A stretch of DNA of 64,000 nucleotides from Capitulum mitella (Eukaryota; Arthropoda; Thecostraca; Pollicipedomorpha; Pollicipedidae): NCBI GenBank assembly GCA_030062745.1, contig CP099854.1, forward strand, positions 5,091,801 through 5,155,800, given 5' to 3'. Positions 2,370 through 42,655 of this stretch are shown in pieces. The notes beneath the pieces are model-generated. The model was given only the letters and a program-made list of their open reading frames with translations. It did no database searches and was not told where the DNA came from. The position numbers were made by a program, and so were the translations under genes. Position 1 is the first letter of the stretch, and the number at the start of each line of letters is the position of its first letter.

Positions 2370-4737
2370 ACAGCCCACATTCAGCCCAGATTCGGCCCAG
2401 CCCAGATTCGGTAGGGAATTCCCTTTACGGGCCGATAACTCCCACAGAACTTAAGAAACCTGGTTTTGCCACACATCAAATGAAAGCACTCGTTAACCCA
2501 AACACAACTGTGCAAAGAAAAATCACCTACCTTGTCTATGGGGAAAGTTATAGACGATTGAAAAAATCATGTCAATGGGGCGGCCCCTACGATTTTCTCC
2601 AAAATTGGCACCTTAAACCACCGACACAAGCCCATCAATCTGGCTGAAGAAACCCTATGGGCCATTGAAATCTAAGGGGTCAAAACCCCCTGGGAAAATT
2701 AAACACAAGTTTTACAGCTTAAACAGCGCCACGCATAGGCCGAATGACACATCAAATGAAAGCACTCGTTAACCCAAACACAACTGTGCAAAGAAAAATC
2801 ACCTACCTTGTCTATGGGGAAAGTTATGGACGATCGAAAAAATCATGTCAACGGGGCGGCCCCTACGATTTTCTCCAAAATTGACACCTTAAACCATCGA
2901 CACAAGCCCATCAATCTGGCTGAAGAAACCCTATGGGCCATTGAAATCTAAGGGGTCAAAACCCCCTAGAAAAAAACCCCTAGGAAAACTAAAAACGCGT
3001 TTTACAGCTTAAACAACGCCACGACTACGCCGAATGACACATCAAATGAAAGCACTCGTTAACCCAAATACAACTGTGCAAAGAAAAATCACCTACCTTG
3101 TCTATGGGGAAAGTTATGGACGATCGAAAAAATCATGTCAACGGGGCGGCCCCTACGATTTTCTCCAAAATTGACACCTTGAACCATCGACACAAGCCGA
3201 TCAATCTGGCTGAAGAAACCCTATGGGCCATTGAAATCTAAGGGATCTGAATGGATGAAATCTAAATCTAATCCAAAAAAGTGTTTTTGCCTCTTTTGTT
3301 CATTCATTTCTTAGAAGACCAATCCTTCTATTTTTGTAACCCTGTGAACGCCCATGAATTTTCTCAAAGTTTCAGATTTGTGCACCCATGGTAAAAGCCC
3401 TATCCATAATCTCTCGGTTCATGCCAGTTTCATCGAAATCGGTCGATAAACAAGGGAGTTATAAGAAGTCCAAAAATAGCCCTGATTTTGACATTTTTGC
3501 CCTTGTATCCATACATTTCAAAATTTTGAAATTTCTTTTTATAAAAATGTAGTTCACGTCATGGAGAATCGATTGCCGTTTGTTGCGAGAAAATCAGATG
3601 TGTAGTTCTCGAGATCTTAGGGGGGTGGGGCCGAATCCGTCCCCCAGCCGGGAATCGGCCATACCGTCTAGCCCTCCGGCAACAGGCTTAAACAGCAAGA
3701 AAACCGACAAGATTAGTCTCCTGCGACACCAGAATCTGCATCATTTAATTGAGTGCATAGAAATGGATGTGGGGATCGGACAGTGACATGTAAACAATAG
3801 ATACCTTGCTTACAGTGGTGGAGATCGAGAGCGCAGCCAATAGAGCACGAAACCAGCAAACTATATACGTATTTGGGTTAACGAGTGCAATGACCCATAG
3901 GGTTTCTTCAGCCAGATTGATGGGCTTGTGTCGATGGTTTAAGGTGTCAATTTTGGAGAAAATCGTAGGGGCCGCCCCGTTGACATGATTTTTTCGATCG
4001 TCCATAACTTTCCCCATAGACAAGGTAGGTGATTTTTCTTTGCACAGTTGTGTTTGGGTTAACGAGTGCTTTCATTTGATGTGTCATTCGGCGTAGTCGT
4101 GGCGTTGTTTAAGCTGTAAAACGCGTTTTTAGTTTTCCTAGGGGGTTTTGACCCCTTAGATTTCAATGGCCCATAGGGTTTCTTCAGCCAGATTGATGGG
4201 CTTGTGTCGATGGTTTAAGGTGTCAATTTTGGAGAAAATCGTAGGGGCCGCCCCATTGACATGATTTTTTCGATCGTCCATAACTTTCCCCATAGACAAG
4301 GTAGGTGATTTTTCTTTGCACAGTTGTGTTTGGGTTAACGAGTGCTTTCATTTGATGTGTCATTCGGCCTATGCGTGGCGCTGTTTAAGCTGTAAAACTT
4401 GTGTTTAATTTTCCCAGGGGGTTTTGACCCCTTAGATTTCAATGGCCCATAGGGTTTCTTCAGCCAGAGTGATGGGCTTGTGTCGGTGGTTTAAGGTGCC
4501 AATTTTGGAGAAAATCGTAGGGGCCGCCCCATTGACATGATTTTTTCGATCGTCCATAACTTTCCCCATAGACAAGGTAGGTGATTTTTCTTTGCACAGT
4601 TGTGTTTGGGTTAACGAGTGCTTTCATTTGATGTGTGGCAAAGCCAGGTTTCTTAAGTTCTGTGGGAGTTATCGGCCCGTAAAGGGAATTCCCTACCGAA
4701 TCTGGGCTGGGCCGAATCTGGGCTGAATGTGGGCTGT
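2370..4737. repeat. 2.4-kb palindrome (foldback) with tandem units in each arm
   Basis: The outer ends are ACAGCCCACATTCAGCCC at 2370 and its reverse complement ending at 4737. Each arm (about 2370-3245 and 3870-4737) carries about three tandem units of 276-290 bp, beginning near ACACATCAAATGAAAGCAC (2471, 2747, 3037) and containing CTACCTTGTCTATGGGGAAAG. The spacer (3246-3869) contains a truncated, inverted copy of the TTAA-flanked repeat. No protein is encoded. This could be a foldback transposon or a palindromic amplification of a satellite; no clear target duplication was seen. Confidence 0.75.
3272..3691 (-). mobile_element. Truncated TTAA-flanked (piggyBac-like) non-autonomous element
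   Basis: This is the reverse complement of the first ~420 bp of the family found complete at 9229, 53341 and 62549. It includes the GATTGCCGTTTGTTGCGA segment and a decayed end next to a TTAA at 3688-3691. It forms most of the spacer of the palindrome, and the rest of the element is absent. Confidence 0.7.
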
Positions 4738-23384: not shown

Positions 23385-26300
23385 CTAGATCTTCTGCACG
23401 TAGTTGCCCGGGAACGTGCCGAACAGGCCGGAGCGGCCGCTGGTGCCGACGTACCTGCCCGACAGCCAATCAGCGCTGAGCGGCCGGCCAGCGTCAGCAG
23501 ACGGCGAACAGGGGCGCCGGCTGACGGCGCCGCTCTGGCGGCCCAACGCCGCCGGCTCGGCGGCGGCAGCAGGCGCGGAGCCCGCCGTGTGACCGGCGCT
23601 TTGGTTGGTGTGATGTAACTTCAGCTGGTGTCATGCACTTCAGCAAGGCACCACAACAGGGCACACGAGACTAAAACGGCATCTATTTCGAAAAAATAAA
23701 CATCTACATCTACTCCCCATAGACTGTCATCATGGTGTACGTACGTATGTGTATGTGTATGCGTGTGTGTATGGGTACGTGTATACATAATCTTCCCAAA
23801 CGAAGCAATTGTTTAACACGTAACACATGAGCTACGGGGGATGAAGTGTTCCCATCCACAGACAGGACAGCTGGCAGTCGGGGGGACGCTGGCCTGAGCA
23901 CGGCCGGGCCCCGTACGCCCCCCCCCCCCAGCCGGCCGGCCGGCGCACTCACCAGCCGTCCTCGCAGCGCTCGACCACGTGCACCAGGTCGCCCTCCCGC
24001 AGCTCCAGCTCGTCATCGTTCTGCGGCGAGTAGTTGAACAGCGCCTTGTACCTGCAACCACGGCCGAAACCACGCTCCAGAACACATCCGCGCCGGGCCG
24101 TGTGGTGTTGCATGCTCCGCGCCGGGCCGTGTGGTGTTGCACGTTCCGCGCCGGGCAGTGTGGTGTTGTACGTTCCGCGCCGGGCCGTGTGGTGTTGCAT
24201 GCTCCGCGCCGGGCCGTGTGGTGTTGTACATTCCGCGCCGGGCCGTGTGGTGTTGCACGTTCCGCGCCGGGCCGTGTGGTGTTGCACGTTCCGCGCCGGG
24301 CCGTGTGGTGTTGTACATTCCGCGCCGGGCCGTGTGGTGTTGCACGTTCCGCGCCGGGCCGTGTGGTGTTGCACGTTCCGCGCCGGGCCGTGTGGTGTTG
24401 CGCGTTCCGCGCCGGGCCGTGTGGTGTTGCATGCTCCGCGCCGGACCGTGTGGTGTTGCATGCTCCGCGCCGGGCCGTGTGGTGTTGCACGTTTCGCGCC
24501 GGGCCGTGTGGTGTTGTACGTTCCGCGCCGGGCCGTGTGGTGTTGCACGTTTCGCGCCGGGCCGTGTGGTGTTGTACGTTCCGCGCCGGGCCGTGTGGTG
24601 TTGCACGTTTCGCGCCAGGCCGTGTGGTGTTGCACGTTCCGCGCCGGGCCGTGTGGTGTTGCATGCTCCGCGCCGGGCCGTGTAGTGAGGCGTTAAGTCC
24701 AGTTCCCGCGGGCGTTTTTGCTCGCGAAGGCAGCGCGGCCGCTCTCCGCGTCAGCTGGCGGCCGCCGGGACGGGTCTGCCTACGTCACAACACCAGACCA
24801 CGGCACAACTGGAACCCCGCCAGCCCCGCTCTCAAGCGCGGCAATTCAAACGGCCGCATCCGATTACAGCGAAGGAAAGCTTTGCGTTTCGCCCAGTGCA
24901 GCAGTCCGGGCTCTGATCTGTGGCGCGCGCGGCCTCCTTCGTTCCAGCGACCGCTGATTGGCCAGTGCCGTGAAAACGCCACGAAACGTCACCGGTCGGC
25001 GACGTGCGGCAGTCGCAGCACAGCTGGCGCCAGTCGCGCGGCAGCATCACGTCCTTTTTGTCGCTCGTGTAAACCGGGCTTCACGCGTTCGGCGCCGCAG
25101 CGCGAGGCACGCGACACACCCGCCGCGCCTGAAGCTCCCTCCCCCGAACACGGGCCGAGTCCCCAGGCCGGCTGACCGCCGAGCGGGGACACGCGCTGCC
25201 GCCGCCATCACGGCGCCGCTTTACCCCGGCGCCGGTCCTCCCCGGCGCTGTTTCCTCGCCCGGCCGAGCCGACATGACGTCACCCAGCGGATCGGCTCCC
25301 GCGCCGCAGCGGCAGCGCCCGCAGCCGAGTAGCCTCACTCACGGCTCCGGCTCCTGCTGCCTGGTGTCCACGCACAGCTGGCGCTGCGGGCCGCCGCCAG
25401 GGGAGGCGGCGCCGCCGCCCGTCTGGCCGTGGGCGGCCGGCACCCCGGCCGGCTTGGCGCTGGTCTCTGAGGACAGAGGTCAGGTCACAGGTCAGCCGGT
25501 CACCTGGTTCGAGGCCGGTCTGAGGCCAGGCCACAGTTCAGCCAGTGAGAGGTGGGGTCACGGGCCAAGAACAGTTCTTATGAGTTCCGGTCGCAGGCCA
25601 GTGCCAGCTGGTCTGGGGTCAGGTCACAGAGGTCAGTGTCGGCCTCACCTCGGGGTGACCTCAGCTCGGCCAGTCTAGTCTGGCCTCTGACTAGCTGAAA
25701 CTGCAGCGCTGTCCGCAGTCCGGCCTCTGATTGGCCGAGACTGGCGCGGGGTCCGCAGTCCGGCTTCTGATTGGCTGAGGCTGCGGCGCTGTCCGCAGTC
25801 CGGCCTCTGATTGGCCGAGACTGGCGCGAGGCCCGCAGTCCGGCCTCTGATTGGCTGAGGCTGCGGCGCGGGGACTCACCGAGCCTGCCGGGCAGCGGGC
25901 GTCCCAGCACCTCCACGTAGCTGGCCGGGAAGATGCCGAGCTTCTGGCCCCGCCGGCCTTCGTACCAGTTGTTGTCCACACGGCGGATCAGGGTCACCAG
26001 CTCACCTGAAGGTCAGCGGACGTTAGTGCGCGCCATCTAATGATCACCAGGTCGCCTGACGGTCAGCAGAGGTCAGCATGCGAGATCCGACGGTCACCAG
26101 GTCACCTGATGGTCAGCAGAGGACGACACGCGCCATCTAACGGTCACCACGTCGCGTAAGTGTCATCGAACGTCGGCGCAGGTCATCTGACGGTCCCCAG
26201 GCCACCTCGGCGTCAAGTTACCGAAGGGGCAGCACGCCACCTTCAGGTAAGCAGGTCGTCAAACACCACCCAAGATCTTAGGTCACCCGCATCACAGAGA

Positions 26301-29115
26301 TCAGCACAAGCCACCTAAGAACCATGGTCTCAAGAGGCCGGCAGGGGTCAGAAGGTCCACGAGCCGAGAGTCACCTGCAGCCTGCTGGTAGCCTCAGTCC
26401 GGGTGCGATTTTCTCCTGCAGTTGATCAACACACTGTCAGCGTCAAACCCCGCCTGCGGCGGCATTAAACACCGCCCCGGAGAGTCCCACCGAGGTCACG
26501 CCAAGGTCAGGCCGCCGTCGCAGCGCTCACCTTTCTTCAGCGACAGTTCGACCGGCGTCTGGGCGGTGAACGTGTAGCGAACGCGGGCCTGTCCCTCGGC
26601 CGCCAGCTTCGGCTGAACCCCCTGGCCGTCCAGAGGCACCACCTGACCACACAAGGAGACGTCACAGAGGTACCAGCTAGCCACACACGGAGACGTCACA
26701 GAGGTACCAGCTGAGCACACACGGAGCCGTCACAGAGGTACCGGCTGACCACACACGGAGCCGTCACAGAGGTACCGGCTGACCACACACGGAGACGTCA
26801 CAGAGGTACCAGCTAGCCACACACGGAGACGTCACAGAGGTACCAGCTAGCCACACACGGAGCCGCCACAGAGGCACCAGCTGACCACACACGGAGACGT
26901 CACAGACTTACCAGCTGACCACACACGGAGCCGTCAGAGGCACCACCTGACCACACACGGAGCCGTCACAGAGGCACCACCTGACCACACACGGAGCCGT
27001 CACAGAGGTACCAGCTGACCACACACGGAGCCGTCACAGAGGCACCAGCTGAGCACACACGGAGCCGTCACAGAGGCACCACCTGAGCACACACGGAGAC
27101 GTCAGAGGTACCAGCTGACCACATACGGAGCCGTCACAGAGGTACCAGCTGACCACACACGGAGCCGTCACAGAGGTACCAGCTGACCACACACGGAGCC
27201 GTCACAGAGGTACCGGCTGGCCACACACGGAGCCGTCACAGAGGTACCAGCTGACCACACACGGAGCCGTCACACAGATACCAGCTGACCACACACGGAG
27301 CCGTCACAGAGGTACCGGTTGGCCTTACACGGAGCCGTCACAAAGTTACCAGCTGACCACACACAGAGCCGTCACAGAGATACCAGCTGACCACACACGG
27401 AGCCGTCACCGAGGTACCAGCTGACCACACACGGAGCCGTCACAGAGATACCAGCTGACCACACACGGAGCCGTCACCGAGGTACCGGTTGGCCATACAC
27501 GGAGCCGTCACAAAGTTACCAGCTGACCACACACGGAGCCGTCACACCGAAGGTACGGCACGGGGCGCCGCGGACAGCGGCGGCATCACCGACCCCGGAG
27601 ACACACCGAGGGCGTCACCAGGAGGGAGGGGACACAGGCGTGACCCCGCGTAAAGACAGAGGCGTCACGTCGACTACAGGCCGCGGACCGCCGCCCGACG
27701 CCACCCGCGGACAACGAGCTAGCCAATCTCCGGCACCGTTAACCAGTCTCCGGCACAGTTAACCAATCTCAGGAACAGTTAGTCTCCAGCAAAGTTAACC
27801 AGTCTCCGGGACACTTAACCAGTCTGGTAGTTACTCCGTCTCCCTACCACCGTTAACCAGTCTTCGGTACTAACCAATCTCCGGGACAGTTAACTGGTCT
27901 CCGGTAGTCACCCGGTCTCAGATGCGGTTAGCCAGTCTCCAGGACAGTTAACCAGTCTCCGGTATATTTGACCAGTCTCCGGTACTGTTAACCAGTCTCT
28001 GGCGTGGTTAAACGGCCTCCGGCGCCAGTTAACCGATCCCCGGAACAGACGAGGCAGCAGCCACTCTGGACGGCCGCCGGAGGGACGCCGCCCGCCGGCG
28101 CATGGGACGGCCGGCCGCCGACCGGCCCACCGACCTCGACGTAGTTGATGGGGAAGATGCCGATGCGGCCGTGCAGTTCGCCCTCCAGCCAGTTTCTGTC
28201 GATCTGGCGCCGAATGAAGATGATGTCGCCCCTGTTGAAGCTCAGCTCCCTGCGGCCCAAAACACTGGGTCACCGTCCCGGCGGAGGGAGGGAGGGAGGA
28301 AAGTCACAGTCCCGGCGGAGGGAGGAAGGGAGGGAGGAGTCACAGTCTCGGCGGAGGGAGGGCGGGAGGAGTCAGTCCCGGCGGAGGGAGGAGTCACAGT
28401 CCCGGCGGAGGGAGGGAGGGAGGAGTCACAGTCCCGGCGGAGGGAGGGAGGGAGGAGTCACAGTACCGGCGGAGGGAGGAAGGGAGGGAGGAGTCACAGT
28501 CCCGGCGGAGGGAGGGAGGGAGGAGTCACAGTACCGGCGGAGGGAGGGAGGCGGGGGTCCCAGTCCCGGCTGCCGTCCCCGTATGTCCGCCGGCCGTTCC
28601 CACACGGCCCGGTCGGCCGACCCCGCTCGGAGGGAGACCTCGGTCGTTTCGCGGCGACCGACAGGACTCGACCGGAGCCGGCGTCACGCGCGAGCGCGGC
28701 TGTCGCCCCGCTGCACCGACGTCACCGCCGCGGGACATTCACAGACCACACGGCAGACTCCGTCACGGCTGCCGTGACGCTCGGCGGTTTGCCAAAGGGC
28801 CTCGGACGATGCCACATCACACTGCGGCACTGTTCGCCGCACACCGAACACTCTGACGGCCGGAGACCTACCCGACACAAGAGCTCTAACCCACAGTTCG
28901 GGGAGAGCTTTCACAGCTCCAGCCGTCCGCGGTCCGCCGCTGCGGGTCGCGCGCCGTCCTCCGGCGGCAGGCGGCCGTACCTGTTGTTGATCGGCCGGAA
29001 GCCGTGCTGCGCCCTGGCCGCCATCTTGGCGAACCCGCCGCGGCTGCTGCGGATCGTGACGTCATCGAACAGGTTGTCGTAGCGGTTCAGCGGGATCGGG
29101 GACTTCTGCGGCGGC
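23385..29115 (-). CDS. CAP: CAP/SORBS adaptor, C-terminal exons: three SH3 domains
   Basis: SORBS-family (CAP/ponsin, vinexin, ArgBP2) proteins link vinculin and signalling proteins to actin at muscle attachment and adhesion sites. Seven minus-strand exons join in phase: 28981-29115, 28135-28249, 26531-26642, 25880-26005, 25343-25466, 23953-24051 and 23385-23454 (TAG at 23385-23387). SH3-1 spans the first two exons ([25 protein letters not shown]). SH3-2 spans the third and fourth ([30 protein letters not shown]). A linker is exon five. SH3-3 spans the last two ([24 protein letters not shown]), ending in QKI. The third domain's PQNDDELEL and the RRVDNNW of the second are close to arthropod CAP. 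SH3-1 has AQHGF where ALYDF is usual, so one ligand-binding aromatic is changed. The donor after exon two (GAG|GTCGGT) is weak but is the only one in phase. Most of these introns carry minisatellites. Confidence 0.92.
23953..24051 (-). CDS. CAP: CAP exon encoding the first half of SH3-3
   Basis: Starts with G completing a Pro codon, then [20 protein letters not shown], and ends in TG completed by the G of the last exon to make the SH3 Trp. The acceptor is GTGGTTGCAG and the donor is CTG|GTGAGT. A 29-bp minisatellite begins only about 35 bp upstream of this acceptor, so the branch point must lie in or next to the array. Confidence 0.92.
24086..24690. repeat. 29-bp minisatellite, about 20 copies, in a CAP intron
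   Basis: Unit GCGCCGGGCCGTGTGGTGTT followed by GCACGTTCC, with a few variants (GCATGCTCC, GTACATTCC, GCACGTTTC). The period is not a multiple of three and contains no stop in most frames. All frames on both strands therefore stay open for hundreds of codons, giving spurious proteins up to 398 codons. Confidence 0.95.
25681..25868. repeat. 40-bp tandem repeat with inverted CCAAT boxes
   Basis: Five units start near 25684, 25724, 25764, 25804 and 25844. Four contain TCTGATTGGCYGAG, which reads as a CCAAT box (NF-Y type) on the minus strand. The array lies in the CAP intron just after the donor at 25880. Whether it binds NF-Y is unknown. Confidence 0.8.
26005..26215 (-). repeat. 50-bp tandem copies of a CAP 3' splice site
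   Basis: The real junction (GACCTTCAG|GTGAGCTGGTGACC, exon starting at 26005) is repeated upstream at exactly 50-bp steps, near 26055, 26105, 26155 and 26205. The first two upstream copies keep GTCAG|GCGACCTGGTGA and ATCAG|GTGACCTGGTGACC; the outer two are diverged. Confidence 0.8.
26642..27550 (-). repeat. 34-bp minisatellite built from a CAP 3' splice site, ~27 copies
   Basis: Read on the gene strand, each unit is close to TGTGTGGTCAG followed by GTGGTGCCTCTGTGACGG and a CTCCG spacer. The real exon starting at 26642 begins GTGGTGCCTCTGGACGG after TTGTGTGGTCAG. The unit therefore contains the acceptor and about the first 17 exon bases. Copies near 26948 and 26982 match the real junction exactly across the acceptor and 12 exon bases. 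Most others have CAG|CTGGTACCTCTG. Confidence 0.9.
27720..28045. repeat. Degenerate ~20-bp tandem repeat in a CAP intron
   Basis: Repeated GTTAACCAGTCTCCGG-type units, about fifteen and imperfect, between the SH3-1 second exon and the 34-bp array. Confidence 0.7.
28270..28560. repeat. ~31-bp GGGAGGGAGG repeat next to the SH3-1 second exon
   Basis: About nine units of CCCGGCGGAGGGAGGGAGG plus GAGTCACAGT. On the transcribed (minus-sense) strand this is a long pyrimidine tract just upstream of the acceptor at 28250. On the plus strand the runs of three G could form a G-quadruplex. Confidence 0.85.
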
Positions 29116-30539
29116 CTGCCGGACGGGGACGCGCCACCGGTTAGCTGGACGGGCACAGGGCACAGAGGCCGGCACGGCCTTACCGAACTGGCGATTTGGT
29201 CGCGCCACCGGTTAGCAAATCAAAACGCATACCGCAGGCGGAACATTTCCGAGTTCAAGACGGGCCATGGCTACGAAAACAAAAATAGCTGCAGAATTCT
29301 CGTGAAACCACCGGAAGCAGCTTTTGCAGTTTGGAAGTTACATTTCTTCGTAACAGTTTCTGTTGTGGTTTGCAACAATTTTGTCTTCAGCCAAACAGCG
29401 GGTGGCACCCTAATGCACCGGCGCAGCCAAAAACGGGGACCAGGGGTTCGCCCCCTCCCCCTTAGACCCACATTTTTTTGTGAAAACCACTGCACATCGT
29501 CTTCAAGCAGGCGGTTTTCGTTCATTTCAGTTTTATTCAGTCCACACTGGCCTGCGGTCCTACCCCCTTAAGAAAATTCTGGCTGCGCCTTTGCCTTAAT
29601 GTAGATCCCATAGAAGACTGAAGAAAAAATGAAATGAAGTGAAAATCAATTCTCACGATCTCTAGATATCATCGCTTAATGATAGACATCACTGCACCAG
29701 TGGCTGCCAGGCCATATTCTCATCACTGCAGCTTTGCACCAATTAAACGACAAAGCGCTGTGAACAGCGTAGCATACATCAATAGCTGTTATACAAAGCT
29801 CATAAAACTGTACCGGAATTTATTGTCTCAAAACAAATTTTAAGGCGCACGAAAATAATAGCGTTGTTGTGTTCCGGAAAAGTTTCAATTGCCTAAACAT
29901 TGCGAATCGTATAAGCACAGTGCTAAAAACCTTAAACTACCCGCTGTGTTGTATCCTACTTTTTTGTTTTAAGTAGACTGAACGCAAACCCGACCATGTG
30001 AGCGTAAAAATGAAATTCCTGCAAAAACTTTTGATGGGGAACCCTACAAACGACTGCGAATTTCACCACATTCTGAAGACGTGCAAATGTTGCCGGCAGC
30101 GCCTTCAGACACCATGAGCCCGGTATTTCCGCCCAACAATCAACAGCGCAGCCGAAAACACGCCATGACGTCAGCACGGCTCGTGACGTAACGGCAGCCA
30201 AGTCTTCCGCCTCGAGCAGGTCCCGTTTTCAGTTGGTTCTCGGCAGCGCTCCATTTCCCTGCCAATGTCCGCCACCTCTAAAATTCACTGCCGGTCCGCG
30301 ACGTAGCCGCCACTCACTCCATCTCCACGCGGCGTAATCTGGAGACAGCTGCCAGTGGGATCACTATCAGCGAAATGAGACAATGCATTTTTGTACACCT
30401 CCAAACGGCGGAAGGTAACAGAAACGGCGAAACCTCGTCGCAAGGTCCCCGTGAGACAGCCGCCACTGAGACAGCTGCAGGTGCAAAACGACCGCCGTCC
30501 AGGGCGGGCGCCACCAGCTTCGGTCAGCCGGCCGGCCGT
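29116..30539. other. CAP intron, part 1
   Basis: No exon recognised. A small element with inverted ends GGCGCAGCCA at 29418 and its reverse complement ending near 29590 (about 170 bp) looks like a MITE; no target duplication was resolved. The remainder is unremarkable. Confidence 0.45.
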
Positions 30540-31133
30540 CTACTCCTTCTCCAGTGTGTTGACGATCCTGTGCTCCGGCTTGCCCTGGTCTCGCACCCAG
30601 TGCAGGCCGTTCTTCCTGTAGAACGTCTCGTTCACGACGGAGACGGTGGCGAACTTGGGCCCCTTGAGCGGTGCGTCGCGGCCACCCCAGCCGTACCGCC
30701 ACGACGTGCACGCCTCGAACGGGAACTTCTCGTCCGGATATAGCTTGTTCCTGGCGCGCAGGTACTGGTAGCGACCCTCCCCGTTGTACGATATGCCGTC
30801 GTACAGCAGCTCCTTCGTCTTCTCGTCCGGCGGGAACATGTCCAGGGAGACCGTGGAGTCCTTTTTCGGGAACGGCGGCGGCGGCCGCTCCTTCTTCATG
30901 TGGTACTGCTTGTCTATGGCGTAGCTGCTCAGGGGGTGTTCGATTGTGTTGATCTTCTTGACGTTGAAGCGGTCGCTTGGCACCTTCACGTCCGCCAGTT
31001 TCGGGTCGTGGATCATGCGCTGGAACTCGGTATCGAACTTCATCGCCCATCGCATCCGCGTTTCTGTCTCATTATGGATCGACTCTTTCCAAAAGTTCTG
31101 CCACTGCGTGTCCACTGGCATTGTTCGCGGCAT
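30540..31133 (-). CDS. SPMIP1: Sperm microtubule inner protein 1 (ATP6V1F-neighbour protein)
   Basis: A microtubule inner protein of the sperm axoneme. The vertebrate family member was previously named ATP6V1FNB. The CDS is a single exon of 197 residues with start context CCACCATGC. The conserved N-terminal block TQWQNFWKESI (residues ~9-19) matches the family's LRQNFWKEEY. The central block ELLYDGISYNGEGRYQYL (~115-132) matches LLYEGISHDFQGRYRYL. It is followed by SWRYGWG and, near the C-terminus, ETFYRKNGLHW, matching ESFFRKNGAF. It lies within the CAP intron between 33157 and 29116, on the same strand, without introns of its own. Testis or sperm expression would be expected. Nesting and lack of introns could reflect an old retroposition, but no poly-A tail or target duplication was seen. 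Confidence 0.9.
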   Translation of the reverse strand: MPRTMPVDTQWQNFWKESIHNETETRMRWAMKFDTEFQRMIHDPKLADVKVPSDRFNVKKINTIEHPLSSYAIDKQYHMKKERPPPPFPKKDSTVSLDMFPPDEKTKELLYDGISYNGEGRYQYLRARNKLYPDEKFPFEACTSWRYGWGGRDAPLKGPKFATVSVVNETFYRKNGLHWVRDQGKPEHRIVNTLEKE

Positions 31134-33157
31134 GGTGGTGGCTTTGTTGGAAACACCGTTTAATCAGCTCGATCAGTGACACAGGAAAAATTTATCAAGA
31201 AAGGCTGGCACTAGTGGTTCAAGTTTCGCAGTGTTTTACTAAAATTTGGAACTAAAATGGGAATTTAGAGAGAACTGTGACAAACGAAAACGATGTTCGC
31301 TTCAGATGCATGGTTTGATTTTCTACCACAGCGAATGATTCACGTGCTCTAATTTAGACGAAGTGCCCTGGCCTGGCATCCGTTAACACTCAAATTGTGA
31401 TGAAACGGCCCGACCCATACATAACCACCCAAGAACAATCTCGCCTTGGAACCACCTGTCAAGAGGCCAACACCTACATCACGAGACGCACAATCAGACC
31501 CGGCGGCCGCGGCAAACAACTCCAGTTATCTACTGTCGCCACCTGGGTGGCATCGACTGTCTGACGAATTCTAGCCTGCTCAAGCATTCTCGGCCGCTAG
31601 CGCGTCGTTTGCAGGATGCCAAAATGCCACCTTTCGCTGACAGCCGATGCATTTGTTATGCTTCATTATTTCGTCAGTCCTTTTACCTGTGACATGACTT
31701 CAATCGGATATCAATCCATTTGTCCAGACCGATTTATATAGTTTTAGCTCCGAACTGGAACGCAGTTTTCCTCAAGTCACCGTCACCGAATAACGGAGCA
31801 CGGACGGCATTTCGCGTCGCTCCGTGGACTCCGTGCGTAGAAACGTGTTCAAAGAGGGCACACGACTGACCACACCGCCACGGGCGCGTCACTGTGCCGG
31901 GGCCGCGCCCGCACGTCAACCCTCCGGACGGACTCTTCCCATTCAAGGGAGGCAGCGCGCAGGTCTGCGCTCGCCAAAGAGCGCTCTGGAGGCGGTGTCG
32001 ATTTGGACTTGGGACCTCCGAGTGGCATCAACAGTGACCTAGGCAGCTGAAGTTTGGTGAGGAGAGAGACCACGACTAGGGCTGTCCGACAGTACCCCAT
32101 GCAACGGGTCACGTGCAAGGGCGCGTGCGCCTCTTTTACACGCGTTTCTCATCGGTCAATTGCCGGGGCGCAATAGGCGCAGTTTGGTGCGATCAATTTC
32201 GATGGATTCACGCCGAAGCAAGGGTGCAGCTTGTACGTGAAGCACAAAGTGCCTAAGCGATTGACACCCCTCCTTCATTGCTGGGTAACTGCTAAATGGC
32301 GGCAAGGAGCACCATTTCTAGTGCTTCACCATTTCAGTGCTATTCGATGAGTGTGGCTCTTCTTCACGCCAATGGCTTCAGCCTGGTGTGTGCGGGACGC
32401 ACGTGCTGAGGTGCAACCCTCTGCCATTTTGGCCCTCGGTTTCGGAACTGTTGATGCTGGAGGCGCTGAACTTTGGGGTGGTCTGCAAAGTCAAAGACGC
32501 CATCCGGGACAAACAGGATTTAGGGTATCAGTGGCAAGATGCCACCCGTGTGAACGTGCAACTTGTTGGACTTGGGATCTTCAGTTTGCGGGGAGGTGCA
32601 CGATTTATTTCTACCTGCATGACGAGGACAGCAGGTGTCGATTTATCAGGACAATGTTGGTGCTAAGCCGGTGCACAGGTCTGCGTGAGATACAAAGGTT
32701 CGATTTTGACCCTAAACCATCCGTGTAACGCGTTGGTTTACCCCTAGTTTACATTTTTTTCCATCAATGACAGGGCGATCATCCGGGGTCAGAACTAAGG
32801 ACCGCGCTCGGTCACCGTGGCCATTTGTCCGGCTTCCACACTTGTCCAACATCTCAGCCACTTGATGAGGTCATTGAATCGTTCACGCTCCGTGCTCGGG
32901 AGCGGATCCAAAGGGCGGACTAAAATCCGACCCCTCCGTCGTCTTTTCTTCCAGAAATCACATGAGCGGTCAGCCGAGGGTGGCGGCTACCAACACCGCC
33001 CCTTTCTCAACTCCTAAACTCTGGGGAAAACGCAGGGCGTGCAGCCAAGCGTACCTCTAAAATTCCTCAGAAAATAAAGACTCGCCAAAATTCGCAGCAA
33101 AACAGGCGACAATGACAGCGCAACCTCTCCCCCCCCTCCTCCCCAGCAGCAACTCAC
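31134..33157. other. CAP intron, part 2, upstream of SPMIP1
   Basis: No exon or element recognised. Reading frames at 32337-32728 on the plus strand are short and lack domains. The SPMIP1 promoter presumably lies in the first few hundred bases. Confidence 0.4.
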
Positions 33158-33220
33158 GTGAAGAAGTCGCCGTGCCTCCTGCGCTCCTGGTCCTGCAGCT
33201 GCTGCTGCAGCTGCTGCTGC

Positions 33221-33252
<32 letters not shown>

Positions 33253-33443
33253 ACGGCGGCGCTGTTCCTCCTCCTGATGGCGGCGCTGCTCCTGCTCCTG
33301 ATGACGGCGCGCCTCCTGGTCGCGCCACTCCCCGCCGCCGGCCGCGCCACGATCGTCGCCCCGCGCGTACTGCGGCGAGACTGGCGCGTGCTGCGTCGAG
33401 ACTGGCGCGCGCTGCGGCGAGACTGCCTCGTGCTTCGGCGAAA
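33158..33443 (-). CDS. CAP: CAP exon with Arg/Gln-rich coiled segment and polyQ
   Basis: This exon matches the SORBS segment before SH3-1, where vertebrates have FIRRRHDDKEKLL and QEEADIAARRHTG. Here it reads EWRDQEARRHQEQEQ, then a polyQ stretch with a few Leu, then DQERRRHGDFF. The donor TTCAC|GTGAGT leaves two bases that complete a Thr codon with the next exon ([19 protein letters not shown]), so the join to 29115 is in phase. The start is uncertain: four acceptor-like AGs occur at exact 21-bp steps (exon starts 33443, 33422, 33401, 33380), all in the same phase. The four encoded heptads resemble VSPQRAP. The polyQ is encoded mainly by CAG with some CAA and CTG, so its length may vary between individuals. 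Confidence 0.82.
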
Positions 33444-36400
33444 CTGCCGCGGGGACGCACGCGGCGCCGTCAGAGCGAACAGCGGCGACAGCGAGACGAC
33501 AGTCCGCAGCTGCCGATCGACAGCGAGCTGTTCGCGGGCGATCTCGGTAACGCCTAACCAGTATCGCCCCACAACGGGCACGAATGCAACGATGTGGGTT
33601 AGAACAATCTGGGATGCGGGCCAACGTTGTGACGGTAGATGACGTTACACACGTGGCAATGAGCTCTTCCTAAAAATTTTAGGCAGCCTTCTTCCATTCG
33701 TCACATCGTTCGTAACCAATTCAACACGATACTGAAAGAGCGCTGACACGTAAGCCACCAAAACAGCTGTCTGCTCCGAGAATCGCCTGAGCACGGCTAG
33801 GAAGGGCTAGTCGTCCGCGTAGGGCAGTCGCCAGCGTCAGGTATCTCAGGGCATTTTCCGCGAACGTGCGCGGCGTAGGCGAAGGAAACAGACAGAGTAA
33901 AGCAGCATCGGTCGTGACGACACAAAGCATTATACAGCAGACCGGGGAGGGGGGGGGGGGCGGATGACGTCGCGGGCGGGCAGCACGTCCCCTCCCCCAA
34001 CATCACGGGCCTAATGAAAGGGGCAAGGGACCATGGCCCCTTGGGAGGCTGGAAATTTTACGTCTCTTTTGTGCACTAACAATAAAATAAACAACACTTT
34101 CCGGACTTTGGAAACAAAGTGACCGAAATCCGCAAGCATGCAGTTTTGAGGTGTCAGGTTTGTCCTGGCCCCCTCCTCGGCGAAAATCCGGCTACTCCCT
34201 TGACCCACACACACATCACGTGCTCCGGGGAGCTGCGGCCGGCTTTATTTGAGGCGTGAGGGCGCCTCTGCACTCGAGCCATGCAGGGGACAAAAGCGAG
34301 CGTCACAGCTTAGTTAGGTAGCGGGCGCAGACAATGTACGACACGGTGTCTCGAGCAAACTGCTGAATTCATTCTAAAATGGTGTCCGTTACATGACCTT
34401 CAAAATATGTGCTCAAGGTCATCACCTACGCCGGTGCGTTTGGTGCCCAGCCGGTCTGTGACGTGAATAGACTTGTGCTTGATTCCACTTAGGGGGGAAT
34501 CGATTCCGGAATCCGACTCACGGCTTGCTGAATGAGTTTTGACTGATTCAACGCGGTTTTCCAATACTGAACCGATTGCGATTCCGACCCAAAGTATGTT
34601 GATTCCGCGACCGATCCCGCTACGAGCTAATGCCACTGGAATCGGCCAGTTCTGATTCCGTAGACAACCGCATGACTCAACTCCGACTAATTTAGACACA
34701 TATCAATGGAATCGATTCCTATTCTGATTGACTGGAACATGACCCAATTCGGAATCGGTTCTGATTCCAATGAAATCGAGCACAAGGCTGGTTCTGAAAG
34801 CCAAAAGACATGGCCCGCACTGCGTGAGTTCGCACACCAAAAAGCTTTAATGGGTCTGCGCGCGCGCGCCAACACGTGCACCGGCAGGAGCCTCCGTGGC
34901 GCGCGGACGCCGGCGGCGGCCGACCTTGACCTCGGCCGACCCGGCCGTGGCGACTCACTCATTGGCCGGTCCGGGATGGCGCCTGTCGACTTCGACTTGG
35001 AAATCGGACCAATCACCGGCTCTACCGACCGAGTCACGTGATTAGACACCGGTTCTACCGACCGAGTCATGTGATCAGGCACTGGCTCTACCGACCGGGT
35101 CACGTGATCAGGCACCGGCTCTGTCGACTATGTCACGTAGTCCGACACCTACTGAGGCAGTCACGTGACTTCCAATCGACAGCAGCCGAACTCTACCGGG
35201 AAACACATGATCAATTAGTGAGAGTTCCGCGGTCTACCGGACGAGTCACCGTCATCAAGCACCGAGCGTCAGTGACCTCCTCCGAGACTGTCCCTGCATC
35301 AACCCCGTCTCCCAGGTCTGTGACGCCGGAAAATGGCTGCCTCCGGGCCCAGTACTGAGGCACTGAAAATACTTCACCAGCCGTCCAATCTCCTGGGTAT
35401 GCACTCCTTCCCTTAAACTGCGCCTTAGTGTTTTTGTTGGTTCTCTGAACACCGTGCATGGCATGCCGTCCCGACATTTGAAGTGTTCCATCGCGTGTCT
35501 TCACCATACTTTTTCACGGATTTCGACAAACATTCGGAACACAAAGCTAGAATAAGTATATATTTAACCCACAACTCACCACGCGATATCCCATAAAAAG
35601 CCATTCGTTCGACGGCTTTAGTGTGTAAATATTGTTAAATATTTACAATGCTTGCCGGTGAAAGTCGCCCCTGCCGGTCTCCACAGTTCCAACACCTGGT
35701 CCGGGCTGTACTCTCACCTCACGGCCAGCTCGGTGGCGCGGATCTCATTACTACACCGTATAGCGCAGCATATGACGGAACTCGGCCGGCCAGGTTCCTT
35801 TTAAACGAATTTCTGGAGGCATTTCCCGTCTTTCGTGGTCATTCTGGAATAACCTTCAAACGGCAAACGCTAATGGGTTCAAATTTCTAGTGCGCTATCT
35901 GAACAACATAACCATCTTGACAAGGGAGAGATGATCAAGTCACCATAGGTCAGATCATATGACGGCATAACCTGAATCATAAGCAAGCTTTTTAGACACT
36001 GCTACATTGCAATATCTGTCTTTTGGTTGGGCGTGGCTTGCAAGAAGCTCATCAGGGATTAAGCAAAAAACCAGGTATAACGTCACGTCAAGTCGAGTGA
36101 CCTCAAACGAGGTCAACGGCTGGCAGCAGCCAGGTCTGAAGTATCGATTTAGCGTCTTTTCTGAAACAAGTCTACCTCTGGCGACCAGTGGATTTCGGAT
36201 ACAGAGAAACACTGCCATTTTCGACCTAGTCCAGAAATCCTATATCACCCACACATAAAACGTACAGGGCCAGGTTATGACCTAATTCAGCATCTCAACC
36301 TATGTTTATCTGCGGCCCGTTTTCGCAAAAAAATTGTAGCAGTTAACTAAGCTCAATGAATACCAGATATAGCTATTGTAGACCATTCTTGTCTTGTCAG

Positions 36401-37264
36401 TCTGCTTCTGAAGCTGTTCGCAAATAACTCAAGTTTAGGGCACAAGACCTGGAGTGCGGTGTCATCGATGACAGTCAGGTCAACAGATGAGATAAACGCA
36501 CGTCGGGCCTGAACGGCTCATTGTAGCGTCACTCACCCTACCCTGCACAGTAATGCTTTTTTCATCTTTGAAAGGCGGTAGGGAAACAATGATTTAATGT
36601 CTGCAGACTGCAGCATCACTCACTATCGGTAAGATGCCCTGTGGGACGCATGACGAGCATGATACTCGTTGTTGCCTACATCACTATTTTCCCTTCATGG
36701 ATTTTGCAAAAAAGGATATGTATCGACTTTCTTAAGCATACTGCATCTGAAGAATGCAAACGTTACGCGCACCCACGATAATGTTCGCCGTCATTACTGA
36801 GCGGCTCAAAAACACCCGTCGAAAAACAGATCTACGGTGTGTGAGAGTGAAAACATCACACGGAATAGCTACGTGGAAGAACGAGCCTGCAAGCTAATAT
36901 ATCCCAAACGAGCACATCTAAAGTTTAAAGAAACCAGCCATCTTCTGACGAAAACTTGGCATTTCGGTGTCCCTGTGGCTGCGAAGTTATTAGCCCCCAG
37001 GAACAGCTGTGGCCGGGCCAATCCAGGCCGCACGGCGGATCAACTCGATTTCTTTTTCTTTGGGTGGCTAGGCAGAAACCAGACACCAGCTTACCCAAAC
37101 AGCGAAGCCATCTACTTACCAAATCGCCCAAACGGCAGCTATTCGGCTCCCGTGCGCGTCCTGGCTACGTTACCACCGGCCATTCAGCATAACGGTCCGA
37201 GGTCACTGGCCAACTGGCAAGGCAGGGTCCCCAACGCTCAACGTTCGCAGCCGATTCCCCTTAC
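33444..37264. other. CAP intron between polyQ exon and giant exon
   Basis: No further exon recognised. Positions 34480-34790 are rich in GGAATCGATTCC-like palindromes. A 35030-35180 array carries E-box motifs. A G run lies at 33950-33961. The rest shows nothing I can name. Confidence 0.4.
35025..35175. promoter_or_regulatory. Tandem array with CACGTG E-boxes
   Basis: About four units of CTCTACCGACCGAGTCACGTGA type, with period near 33 bp. CACGTG or one-base variants occur near 35036, 35068, 35100 and 35163; the last is the palindrome GTCACGTGAC. Such sites are bound by bHLH-zip factors (USF, Myc, TFEB families). The site lies in a CAP intron, and function is inferred only. Confidence 0.45.
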
Positions 37265-40200
37265 CTTTCCACGTAACGTTGCGCTTCCTTGTGCGCCACC
37301 GGTTGTAGGCCCTCACTGCGCATGCGTCACAATGCCAGCGACGACTGTCGGCGTACGGCTGAAACCCGAAGTGCGTCGGGCGCCGACAGGCGGCGCTAGT
37401 GGCGCGGGCGGGCGGGACGTAGCGGCCGACGGGCCGATGGATGGACCAATCGCGTGGCTCGCCGGCCCAGGCCGGCCGTCTACCATTGGCCGACGGAGCG
37501 GCGTGGGCGTGGCACGGCAGTGGCGTCGAGGTGATGAGAGGCGCGGCGCTGAACGAGGGCGCCGAGATGGGCCGGAACTGGCGGGCCGCGTCGCCGCGCT
37601 GTCCGCGGGCCGGCGCGGCGGCGGCGGCGGCGGCGCCGGGCGGCCGGCCGCGCTCGGCCATCACGTCCAGCCGGCCCAGGTCGCGCGCCAGTCGGACCGA
37701 CCAATCGGCCGGCGTCGGCTCCTCTGCGCCGTCCTGCAGCTGTCGCTTCAGCCGGTCCACCTGGCCGCGCCGCACGCGGCGCAGCGTCTCGCGCTCGCGC
37801 TCCACGAACGAGCGTAGGTGGTCGAGCTCCTCCTGCTCGCTGGTGGGCCGCCGCAGTCGGCGCTGCAGCTGTACGATCTTGCTCAGGATGCGCGTGCGCG
37901 AGATGTAGGCGCCCAGCTGGCGGAGGTTGCGCGGCGGGCTCCAGCTGCGCGGCCGCGCGCCGCCGCCGCCGCCGCCGCCGTCCGACTCGAAGCGGCGCGC
38001 CAGCGTGCGGACGGCGCCCGTCGCCGGCAGCTGCGGCAGGCTAGCGGCGCGGCTCAGGCGCGGCGCCGGCACCGGCCGCCGCGGCAGGAAGCGGCCCGAC
38101 TCCAGCAGCTGCCGCATCCGGCGCACTTCGCCCGGCGGCGGGGGCGGCGAGCCGCGGCCGCCGACCGCCGGCCGCGGCGGCGACGCGCTCGGCAGCCGCA
38201 CGGGCAGCCCGCCGCGGCGCGGCGGCGAACGGCTGGCCGGCCGCCGCGGCGGCGAGTACGACCAGCCGCGGCCGACCGGCGACGCCGAGCGCGAGCGCGC
38301 GAAGTCGTCGAACGCGCGCCGGAAGTCGTCCTCGTACCGGAGGACGTCGTGTTCGCCGAGCTCGTCGCGCCGGCCCAGCTCCACGGACGAGGCGGACCGT
38401 TCCGGCACGTAGTCGGGCGAGAGGAAGCGGCGGCGGCCTCCGCCGCGGCGGCCCGGCGCCGGCAGGGAGCTGAACCGGCCGGCCGCCTCCGCCGACAGGC
38501 TGCGCGGCGAGTGGCGCCCGCCGGCGCACTCGGCCGCCGCCGCCGCCGCCTCGCGTTCCCAGCCGTACACGGCGCGCGGCACGCCGCCGCCGGCGGCGGC
38601 CGGCTCCGGCCGCTCAACCACCGTCTGCACCGACGACTGCGAGCCGAGGCCGTTGCCGTTGGCGTCGGCGTCGGCGGCGGCCGGCGGCGGCGACTCGGCC
38701 GCCGCCAGCGGGCGCCGCAGCCGCTCCAGCCGGCGCTGGCGCAGCCGCTCGGAGCGCTCCACCAGCTGGCGGCGCTCCTCTGCCGTGAGCGCGGCGCGCG
38801 GCAGCGAGCGGGCGCGCTCACGCTCGGGCGTCAGCACCAGCAGGAACTCGTGCGCCTCGGCGCGACGCTCGCCGTCTTCCGAGAAGTCCACCGAGTAGCA
38901 GGTGCGCGGCGAGCCGGCCGACGCCGCCGGGCTGGCGCTCTTGGAGCGCGACTCGCGCGCCGGCCGCGGCGCGAACCGGTCGGCCACCTCGCGTGACAGC
39001 GCCAGCGACAGCCGGCGCCGCTCGGCCTCGCTCGGCGCCGGCTCGGCGCGCGCCGGCGGCGGCCGGGCGGCGCCGGGCGCCGGATCGGCCGGCCGGCGCG
39101 GCTCGCTCTGGCTGCGCGGCGACTGCAGGCTCGACTGCGAGCCGTAGATGCCGGTCAGCCGGTCCTTGATGCTCTCCATCTGGCCGGCCGAGAGCGAGCT
39201 GCGGGAGCGGCGCACGCCGGGGGCGCGCGGCGGCGCCGGCTCGGCCCGCTGTGGCTCGTCGAACTGGCGGCGCAGGTCCTCCACGGAGCGCCGGCGCCAC
39301 TCCAGGCTGCGGTCGCCGCACCACTTGCCGCTCAGCCTGCTGGAGAACCTGGTGTAGAACTCGCAGCGGCGCTGCGCGGCATCCAGCTGCTCGCAGATGC
39401 GTTTCATCTCGGACAAAGCGCGCTCCTTCGCGCGGATGCGGCGCCAGGCTTCGTAGCTGGGGAAGGCGCGCCGGCCGGGCACGCTGCACTCCTCCGGTGA
39501 GCCGCTCCAGCTCCATCAGCCGCTCCAGGCTGTGGTAGTGGCGCTGCAGACGGCAGAAGTGCGGCGACTTCCGGCTGGCGCGCAGCAGGCGCATCACGTA
39601 GCGCCGGTACCGCAGCGGGTCCACGTACGGGCTGGGGCTCAGCTCGCGCGCGCTGCGAAGGCTCTCCAGGCTGCGGCTGAGCGGGTGGCGGCGCGGCGCC
39701 GGCTCCGGCGGCCCGTCCAGGCCGCGCGACACCGAGCCGCTCAGGCCGCGCACCAGCGGCGGCGACTTGAGCGCCAGCTCCGGGCTGGAGAGCGTGCTGC
39801 GCAGCCGCTCCAGCCGGTCCACGGCGTCGCGGACCGGCGACGGCCGCCGCCGGTCCGCCTCCAGACCGGCCACCAGACGCTCCAGGTGCTCGAACTTCTC
39901 GCGCAGCGCGGCGGTCAGGCCGCGCGGCGGCCGCATCGCCACGTACGCCGACGAGCGGAAGAGGCGGCTGGTGCGCCGCGGCGGGCTGCCCTCCATGCTG
40001 CCGTAGCCGGTCTCGGTGCTCGTGGAGAGCACCTTGCCGGGCGACGGCGCGCCGCCCGAGCGCGGAGACGACTCGGCCGAGCCGCCGGCGCGCGCCGGCC
40101 GCGGCAGCGTGGCCGACCTGCGCGCGGAGACTGGCTGAGCGCGGCCGCCCGGCTGGCTGGTGCGCGCGTGCGAGGCAGCGTGCGCGCTGCGGGGCGCGCC

Positions 40201-42243
40201 GCCGCCGCCGCCGCCGCCGACCTGGCCGTGCGGGCAGACGGCGGTGGAGCGGACGGTGGCGGCCCGGGTCAGCGGGCGGCCGCGCGCCGCCGCCGCCGGC
40301 GCCGGCCGGCTGGCGAAGCTGCGCGCCCTGACCACGGCGCGGCCGGCGGCGGCGGCGGCGCGCGCCGCCTCGTGCTGGCGGTCGTGCTGGCGCGGCGTGC
40401 TGGTGCGGCCGTAGCTGGAGGTGAAGGTGGGCCGGCCGTAGCTGGCGGCCACCAGCGACGGCGAGGAGAGCGCCGGCCGGAGGGGCGCCGTCGCCGGCCG
40501 GCCGGGCCGCGCCAGGCTGCTCGGCGGACTGTAGACGCGCCCGCCCGGCTCCGTCAGGACCCGAGCCGCCGCCGGCCGGCCGCCGCCGCGCCACGAGCGC
40601 ACCGTGCTCTTGGACGGCGAGCTCACCGACGAGCTCACCGAGCTGGTCTTGGACGAATCGGCCGTCTTCGTCGGCGACGACGGCGGCGAGCTGGCGCTGC
40701 GCGCCGCCGCCGCCGCCGGCGGCGTCCTTCGCGCCGACACCGACCTCGTTGGCTGCGGCCGGGCGGCGGCCGGCTCGGTGGCGTCAGCGCGGCGCGGCTC
40801 GGAGCGCGAGCGAGGCGCGTTCCAGCCGCGCTCGCGACGCCGCCGCTGCTCGTCGTCGCTCTCGGAACGCGGCCGGCCGGCGGCGGCGCGTCGCTGCCGG
40901 ATGGTGCGCCGCGCCGGCCGGCCGGCGGCCGGCGCGGCGGCGGCGGCCTCGCGGCGGGAGCGGCGGCCGCCAACCGCCCGGCCGCCGCCGCCCGGCGACG
41001 GCTCGCGCTGCCGGCCGACCGCGCGCGGCGCCGACCGCGACCGGCCGCCGTCCGGGGCTCCGTCTCCGCCGTCTCCGCTCGACTCCTGGCTGTCTCCGAG
41101 GTCTCCGACCGGCTCCTGCGCCGGCCGCTCCGGGCCGCGGGGGTCCGGCGCGCCGTCGCGCTCGCCGACCGCCCTCTCCAGCTCGGCGGTCTCGATGGCG
41201 TCGACCGTCTGGCGGACGCGGCCGTCCAGACCCAGTATGTCGCGCGCCGCTGGCGAGTAGCGCACCTGCACCAGCAGCTCGGCCTCGGAGCCGGCCGCCG
41301 ACGGCAGTCGCACCACCGAGCGGCGCGTCTCCGGCTCCGGCGGCTCCTCCTCCGGCTCCTGTGGCTCCTCCTCCGGCTCCTGTGGCTCCTCCTCCGGCTC
41401 CTGTGGCTCCTCCTCCGGCTCCGGCGGCTCAAGAGGGTCCCCGGCCGTCTCCGCTGTCTGTCCTGTCCGGTTACCGTTCACGTCGCCGTCGCCGCCGCCG
41501 CCGGTGTCGCTGCTGACGTTGTTGTCGCTGTGGTTGTTGATGTCGTCGTCGGTGATCTCCTCGATCCTGACGCCGCCGTCGCCGACGCTGAGCAGGCAGC
41601 TCCAGGCGGCATCCGTGGCGGCCCGGCCGGCGCGCTCCGCGTGCTCGAGCCGCTCCAGCTGGGCGCGGTCCTGCACGGTGAACACACTCTCGGTGACGGC
41701 GCGCCGCGCGTCCAGCAGCACCTCAGCCGGCCGCCGCTCTGACCGGAGACTGCCGCAGCGGCGCGGAGCCGAGCCGGACACCGAGCCGGCGCCGGCCGCG
41801 CGCAGGCTGGCCGAGCGGCGCGCCGGCCGGTCGCCGGTCGCCGGCGAGCGCGAGCGGCCGCGGCCGGCCGCCGGCGGCGGCGAGCGCGGCTCGGGCGAGC
41901 CGCGGGTCTGCGTCCACTTGACCAGGGTCGGGTTCCAGCGCGACTGCAGCCGCCGCGGCGGCGCCGGCCGCTGCCCGTCGCCCGGCCGCCGCAGCGACAT
42001 GGTGACGCGCGTGCGGGTGTAGCGAAGCCGCCTCCTGGCGCGCGGCTCCTCCTGCTCCTGCTCGGCGGCCGCCGACTGGCGCAGTGTGGAGTAGAGCGCA
42101 GGGTAGGTGGCCGTGGGCCGCTCTCGCTCCCGGTCTCTGTGCGGGAAGCTGTAGAGCTGCGCGCGCGGCACGCTGTACAGCGGCGAGTGCGGCAGGTCGT
42201 CCAGGTCGCAGCAGTACAGCGGGTTCTGGCGGTACACGGGCAT
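37265..42243 (-). CDS. CAP: CAP giant low-complexity exon (with one frame break)
   Basis: About 1,660 codons, read from ATG at 42243 to a strong donor (GGAAAG|GTAAGG) at 37265. The product is Arg/Ser/Pro/Ala-rich. It starts PVYRQNPLYCCDLDDLPHSP and has four EEEPQEP-type repeats (~270-300). Conserved-looking blocks follow: SPHFCRLQRHYHSLERLMEL (~890-910), FPSYEAWRRIRAKERALSEM (~923-942), RRCEFYTRFSSRLSGKW and LEWRRRSVEDLRRQF, then a coiled region (LRSFVERERETLRRVRRGQ). These resemble a large exon of arthropod CAP and sit where vertebrate SORBS2 has its neuronal exon. Around 39485-39500 the frame shifts between two overlapping open frames; there is no room for an intron, so an assembly indel is the simplest explanation. 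The end phase fits the polyQ exon. The start may be an acceptor (TTTCAG at 42260-42265) or a separate promoter. Confidence 0.75.
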
Positions 42244-42389
42244 GCCGGGCGGGCCGGCCCTGAAATGCCGCCGGCACCGCGTGACCTTTCGGCGACCTCC
42301 GGCGGCCGGGTCAAGGTCACGGCGACCCTGAGACGGCAAAGCAAGACTGTCTCGGCGGGCGTCTGGTCTCCAAGTCTCGGGTGGTCGTG

Positions 42390-42655
42390 ATCACTCCGGA
42401 AATGCCAGTGATCTCTCAGAAAACGATCAATGATCTCTCCGGAGATGCTCAGTGTTCTCTTAGGAAATGATCGATGGTCTCTCAAAAGGTGATCCATGGT
42501 CTGTCCAAAGACGACCAATGGTCTCTCCAGAGATGACCACTGGTCTCTCCAGATATGATCCATGGTCTCTCCACAGATGATCCATGGTCTCTCCAGAGAC
42601 GATCACTGGTCTCTCCAGAGATGATCACTGGTCTCTCAGGAGACGGTCAGCCGTA
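42390..42655. repeat. 22-bp tandem repeat upstream of the giant CAP exon
   Basis: About twelve units of GGTCTCTCCAGAGATGATCACT at 22-bp spacing (for example 42498, 42520, 42542, 42564). Units contain the short palindromes TCTCCAGAGA and TGATCA. Confidence 0.85.

Follow-up and report, generated by a model that had tools for sequence, protein, structure and literature searches.

The 3' splice site of one SORBS exon in Capitulum mitella is repeated through the upstream intron as a 34-bp minisatellite, together with the first coding nucleotides of the exon. The intron thus offers 25 nearly identical acceptors, and the last alone keeps the reading frame. The array was derived from the exon junction, and not the junction from the array; its upstream acceptors lead into stop codons, and like events are seen at other SORBS junctions and at one myosin donor. 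Neutral tandem growth across the exon edge is the most likely origin, and the array is probably a by-product of abundant repeats, not a dedicated switch.

The SORBS gene and the 34-bp array

SORBS, or CAP (Cbl-associated protein), is a cell-adhesion adaptor gene. The best PDB match of the array-bearing gene is 2mox, SORBS1 (E 2.4e-33), and SH3 models place tandem SH3 domains of the SORBS type in the C-terminal part of its product. Orthologues are present among the predicted proteins of Pollicipes pollicipes (P0004) and Amphibalanus amphitrite (P0125). These matches bear out the identification as CAP made in an earlier note on this DNA. With P0004 as a guide, ten minus-strand exons forming one continuous open frame were placed in the window, the 64,000-nucleotide stretch analysed here. 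The automatic join lacked exons c and h, had two empty joins and gave one exon a different acceptor; these were set by eye. A longer model, comprising the window and the next 100 kb of the contig, contains 23 acceptors and 19 donors, the donor rows being absent for three exons without a sure donor and for the last exon. The features are listed in Table 1.

Table 1. Exons, intron and tandem arrays at SORBS junctions (window coordinates).
Feature	Position	Strand	Basis
34-bp minisatellite: 26 intronic units (24 AG, 2 AA) and exon start	26625..27546	-	TRF, unit list, matrix scores, frames
Exon e, second part of SH3 domain 1, donor GAG|GTCGGT at 3' end	28135..28249	-	tblastn with P0004, 88% identity; splice-aware join
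1492-nt intron with the 34-bp array at its 3' end	26643..28134	-	Exon model
Exon f, 112 nt, starts GTGGTGCCTCTGGAC (VVPLD); true acceptor AG 26643-26644	26531..26642	-	Orthologue proteins
50-bp array, 3.3 copies, unit spans acceptor of exon g (first base 26005)	25992..26155	-	TRF, alignment
33-bp array, 3.3 copies, unit spans acceptor of exon b (first base 35021)	35014..35122	-	TRF, alignment
21-bp array, 4.2 copies, from 8 nt before acceptor of exon c (first base 33443) into the exon	33363..33451	-	TRF
29-bp array, 20.7 copies, ends 35 nt before acceptor of exon i, not spanning (contrast)	24087..24687	-	TRF
32-bp array, ends 19 nt before acceptor of exon e, not spanning (contrast)	28269..28570	-	TRF

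The junction between exons e and f is well defined. Donor 28135 and acceptor 26642 form the top-scoring GT/AG pair in a script that scores pairs against P0004. Across the junction the window reads EVVPLDGQ, and the corresponding sequences are QVVPLDSQ in A. amphitrite and EVVPIDGQ in P. pollicipes. The orthologous proteins read straight through, so the exon start proposed earlier holds; its first base is 26642.

TRF assigns the array a period of 34, 27.3 copies and 89% matches, which makes it a minisatellite and confirms the earlier description of about 27 splice-site copies. In gene orientation, 24 of the intronic units are 34 nt long and two are 32 nt. Each unit is composed of TGAC, about 19 nt, CAG and then about 18 nt of exon-like sequence. 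The unit consensus, written from the base after the AG, is CTGGTACCTCTGTGACGGCTCCGTGTGTGGTCAG. The 24 full-length units have a mean identity of 94% to this consensus, and the difference tends to rise with distance.

An AG precedes 24 of the 26 intronic copies, and AA stands before the copies starting at 27488 and 27318. In the two AG columns, A is kept in 26/26 copies and G in 24/26, a level of conservation not clearly different from that of the remaining unit positions. Position +1 is occupied by C in 23 of the 26 copies; three mid-array copies (27082, 26980 and 26946) keep the exon-like AG|GTGGTG. Copies 26980 and 26946 are identical to the true junction across TGTGTGGTCAG|GTGGTGCCTCTG, the same two units that had been singled out before, and copy 27082 is one base off, on the intron side. 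It had been claimed that every unit consists of an acceptor and about 17 exon-like bases. The likeness is real and extends 18 nt beyond the junction, but the two AA copies depart from the rule.

Aligned by eye, the units carry one T more than the exon. The true exon is without this T at the stop position (CTCTG-GACGGC), and the unit's stop is the TGA within TGTGAC. The extra T therefore accounts for the 34-nt period as well as for this stop. A unit without it would be 33 nt long and open, like the 33-bp array of exon b.

A 40-nt junction query reaches a score of 61 against the upstream 400 nt, a value attained by 0/200 dinucleotide shuffles, which excludes chance for the array. In a search of the 477-Mb assembly that leaves out very common words, all 11 matches returned for 26531-26700 fall within exon f and its array. 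A dispersed repeat or transposon was thus rejected as the source of the unit.

Some additional features of the locus were observed. The unit starting at 26914 reads CAG|CTGGTAAGTC, which places a consensus-like donor (26906-26911, minus strand) three bases past the acceptor. A single-exon ATP6V1FNB-like gene (30543-31163, minus strand) lies between SORBS exons c and d and shares 81% identity with an A. amphitrite protein. In A. amphitrite, this homologue and SORBS are both derived from a contig with a listed length of 307432 bases, which makes conserved linkage probable. Within a SORBS intron, positions 37206-42390 (minus strand) contain two long overlapping open frames of 770 and 1190 codons with about 80% GC. 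The region has no minus-strand match to P0004 or P0125 at E 1e-2 and may represent either a nested gene or barnacle-specific exons.

Reading frames and choice of acceptor

Read on from the upstream exon in its frame, every one of the 24 upstream AG copies meets a stop before rejoining the SORBS frame, as a matter of coding potential only. The stop is a TGA at codon 5 for 21 of them; copies 27114, 26946 and 26880 run 26, 12 and 38 codons, respectively. The poison reading frame attributed to the upstream copies is to this extent borne out. The same claim held that any copy would give VVPL followed by an in-frame TGA, and here the stops stand but the peptide does not: VVPL is encoded by just three of the 26 copies (27082, 26980 and 26946), and most others encode LVPL, LVSL, LVTL or PVPL.

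The true acceptor is not the strongest site. A matrix built from the gene's other 22 acceptors gives higher scores to copies 26980 and 26946, leaving it third among the 25 AG copies. Among the 60 AGs of the intron and exon f it comes seventh; one of those ahead of it, at 26588, is within the exon. Correct splicing is therefore not accounted for by local strength, and this explanation for preferring the last copy was rejected. Concealment of the decoys by RNA structure was likewise not supported. A 230-nt piece containing exon f and about three and a half units folds less stably than its shuffles, with a z of +1.97 and 197/200 shuffles at least as stable.

SORBS is most likely made through the last array copy. 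From the sequence we infer which copies are used, and likewise the branch points, exon definition and decay. The array constitutes a natural test of how a 3' splice site is chosen, by scanning from the branch point or by exon definition. The same gene also provides matched contrasts, on both the acceptor and the donor side, between arrays that stay open, with a period divisible by three, and arrays of other periods that contain stops.

Arrays at other junctions and the background rate

Three other acceptors in the window are in register with the units of tandem arrays (Table 1). The exon g array contains two upstream in-register AG copies, both leading to stops. In the exon b array there are three upstream AG copies, the period is divisible by three and the frame is open; the predicted proteins of A. 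amphitrite and P. pollicipes do not contain the peptide that these units would add. The 21-bp array continues in frame into exon c, and its score was reached by 2/200 shuffles. Its repeats are also absent from the predicted proteins of the two species. The ordinary intronic minisatellites at 24087-24687 and 28269-28570 are similar to the 34-bp array in unit length, copy number and gene, but they stop short of the splice junction.

Further up the gene, in a numbering that joins the window with L009-L018, donors 118038, 88120 and 70564 have tandem copies that include exon bases. At donor 118038, a 28-bp array (L014:3705-4046; 10.5 copies by TRF) repeats the last exon codons together with the donor and contains nine matches to GAGTACCAG|GTCAG. 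Acceptor 88250 has one partial junction-spanning copy. Two acceptors were left out of the count: 92081, with three in-register TTTCAG copies and about 3 nt of exon, and that of exon h, whose score was reached by 4/200 shuffles in the 400-nt test and 73/500 in the 150-nt test.

Exon g starts with GTGAGC, and its junction TTCAG|GTGAGC (26005, minus strand) also matches the donor consensus. Tandem copies of this junction could in principle be spliced to each other.

In the window, TRF arrays span 4/10 acceptors and 0/9 donors, and a rotation of nine of the acceptors gives a P of 0.145, an excess that is not significant. The corresponding numbers for the longer model are 4/23 and 2/19. Local alignment, with a score threshold of 25 and copies within 150 nt of the junction, detects junction-spanning copies at 5/23 acceptors (the four of the window and 88250) and 3/19 donors. 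Non-junction sites in SORBS score as high in 12.6% of 2500 sampled AGs and 12.0% of 2500 sampled GTs, from which about 5 of 42 junctions would be expected by hand calculation, compared with 8 seen. A background taken near junctions is higher (18% for AG and 23% for GT) but is inflated by the arrays themselves, making the whole-gene rates fairer. At a threshold of 30, 3/23 acceptors and 3/19 donors pass, against backgrounds of 10.8% and 10.6%. With a symmetrical query, 6/42 junctions score, versus a rotation mean of 5.5 (P 0.48). The threshold applied to the junctions is reached by 15.6% of 212 AG/GT sites lying inside exons.

A myosin sample, comprising 29 of the 30 matches (out of 86) that came with loci, one long exon (L029) being left out, yields 1/28 acceptors and 1/29 donors, or 2/57, compared with 3.7% of 4640 flank positions. 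The myosin junctions were picked by the SORBS matrices near match ends, and some may be wrong. The acceptor match (L052) is weak and is not covered by a TRF array. The donor, on another contig, is associated with a clear 23-bp array of 17.3 copies (L057:1689-2085), which begins 15 nt inside an exon ending ...ISAAGYPS and contains seven matches to TACCCGTCCAG|GTGGGC when two substitutions are allowed. Minisatellites cover 4.0% of bases in ten random 5-kb pieces of the genome, 10.5% in SORBS and 24% at the 3' end of SORBS (23388-35130).

Since junction rates are similar to those of other positions, preferential seeding is unsupported and a general process is favoured. Special seeding at junctions was rejected on the lack of a significant excess in the rotation of TRF-spanned acceptors, the matched AG/GT sites, the 42-junction rotation and the myosin sample. 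The idea that the minisatellite was seeded by a splice junction is accordingly correct in that the array grew from the junction, but not in that a special process was at work. In these two gene samples, arrays lie on junctions about as often as elsewhere, with neither clear enrichment nor visible avoidance; the background rates rest on few genes, and such a small sample is compatible with modest enrichment. Minisatellites are thus not visibly excluded from splice junctions in the two samples.

Origin of the array and related systems

The likely explanation as a whole is an ordinary local duplication over the SORBS 3' splice site followed by growth on the intron side. A local tandem duplication in a minisatellite-rich stretch would have captured the splice site with about 18 nt of coding sequence, and the captured segment would then have expanded on the intron side until 26 copies were present. 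Every unit would be a near-complete acceptor module, with a branch-point-like TGAC about 19 nt before the CAG and an exon-like start after it. The last copy may be favoured by exon definition from the downstream donor, helped by its AG|G context. Variable leakage to upstream AGs may occur, and the stop-bearing products would be expected to be degraded. Most likely, growth of the array was tolerated because the last copy still works.

The direction of copying is given by the orthologues. VVPLD or VVPID is kept in A. amphitrite and P. pollicipes, which indicates that the exon sequence came first and seeded the array. The reverse, that the start of exon f is a captured array unit, would fit the alignment of the two over 18 nt with one indel, but it is the least credible reading in view of the conserved barnacle peptides, of IVP or ILP at the corresponding position in two decapods and a bee, and of the confinement of all matches returned for the unit to this locus. 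Misassembly multiplying the copies is also very improbable. A single assembly is the source of the array; the units nonetheless vary, with 94% mean identity to the consensus and differences that tend to rise with distance, two of them are 32 nt long, and similar arrays with other units are found in the same gene.

A regulatory role is unlikely, though less so than either of these. Under such a role, upstream acceptors would be used at a controlled rate and copy number would set SORBS output through nonsense-mediated decay. Consistent with it are the 24 intact AG copies that all end in stops, an AG no less preserved (A 26/26, G 24/26) than other parts of the unit, and the inverse correlation of VNTR length with expression reported for human ABCA7 (PMC5954066). 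However, several other columns of the unit are at least as well conserved as the AG, the C at +1 in 23/26 copies scores below AG|G, and the junction rate is close to background. In ABCA7, moreover, length changed exon 19 skipping and not repeat-unit retention (PMC5954066). We regard as equally doubtful a junction-directed process, such as R-loops or AGGT-type tandem duplication, that would start arrays more often at junctions. The 8/42 SORBS junctions with copies against about 5 expected, and the 4/10 acceptors against 0/9 donors in the window, point in this direction, but neither rotation is significant (P 0.145 and P 0.48), myosin is at background with 2/57, one of them weak, and donors are also affected further up SORBS.

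Ordinary duplication and intron-side growth could have a broader consequence, which we put forward as a speculative and rather unlikely proposal: arrays in barnacles may repeatedly form and persist across exon edges, their copy number serving as a fast-mutating dial of isoform choice and decay. If so, a substantial fraction of the splice sites of some genes would consist of 2 to about 25 near-identical competing copies. By local alignment, this would concern 8/42 junctions in SORBS, with the 33- and 21-bp units open and the 34- and 50-bp units poisoned. Array copy number would then influence isoform choice and transcript decay.

Minisatellites that contain splice sites have precedents. The human ABCA7 intron 18 VNTR has a 25-bp unit, present in 23.7 reference copies, that includes the exon 18 splice donor (PMC5954066). 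Splicing at a cryptic donor one unit further in retains 25 bp, which causes a frameshift and premature stop, and longer alleles show less expression and more exon 19 skipping, with unit retention unchanged with length (PMC5954066). Like the SORBS array, the VNTR is built of short units flanking an exon and including a functional splice site of that exon, and use of the extra SORBS copies would, by coding potential alone, similarly lead to a premature stop. The two differ in that ABCA7 concerns a donor and the 34-bp array an acceptor, the donor cases being elsewhere in SORBS and in myosin. In ABCA7 the repeat opens with the donor GT, and the available text describes no exon sequence in the unit (PMC5954066), whereas the SORBS unit includes a branch-point-like motif, an AG and about 18 nt of exon likeness. 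The minisatellite of IFI6 (6-16, G1P3) is reported to provide multiple splice donor sites (Turri et al. 1995). It resembles the SORBS array in that a transcript is supplied with one splice site many times over; as described there, the IFI6 copies are on the donor side of an interferon-induced transcript, in contrast to the acceptor side in SORBS. By analogy, the SORBS array would act like those of ABCA7 and IFI6, but on the acceptor side and with exon bases in the unit.

The earlier statement that no such minisatellite had been described does not hold, since ABCA7 and IFI6 are donor-side precedents. The earlier note thus made a real observation but claimed more uniqueness, and more uniform reading frames, than the locus bears out, and it did not take in the neighbouring cases. 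A literature search of titles and abstract starts found no acceptor-side splice-site minisatellite, and a published case may still exist.

In the AGGT model, duplication of an AGGT site gives rise to a new intron between the two copies. Gain of introns through tandem genomic duplication has been described (PMC4974935). The SORBS arrays resemble this process in that tandem duplication affects splice sites, and the AGGT type is represented by the junctions of exon f (CAG|GT) and of exon g (CAG|GTGAGC). Unlike it, the SORBS array lengthens an existing intron by many copies. AGGT intron gain is not indicated here, as the spliced model matches P. pollicipes at exon f without an extra intron.

Tandem arrays with longer units are also present in the window, at 2471-3244 and 3888-4636. 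Their units are 290 and 276 bp, and the printed starts of their consensus sequences contain near-identical reverse-complementary stretches.
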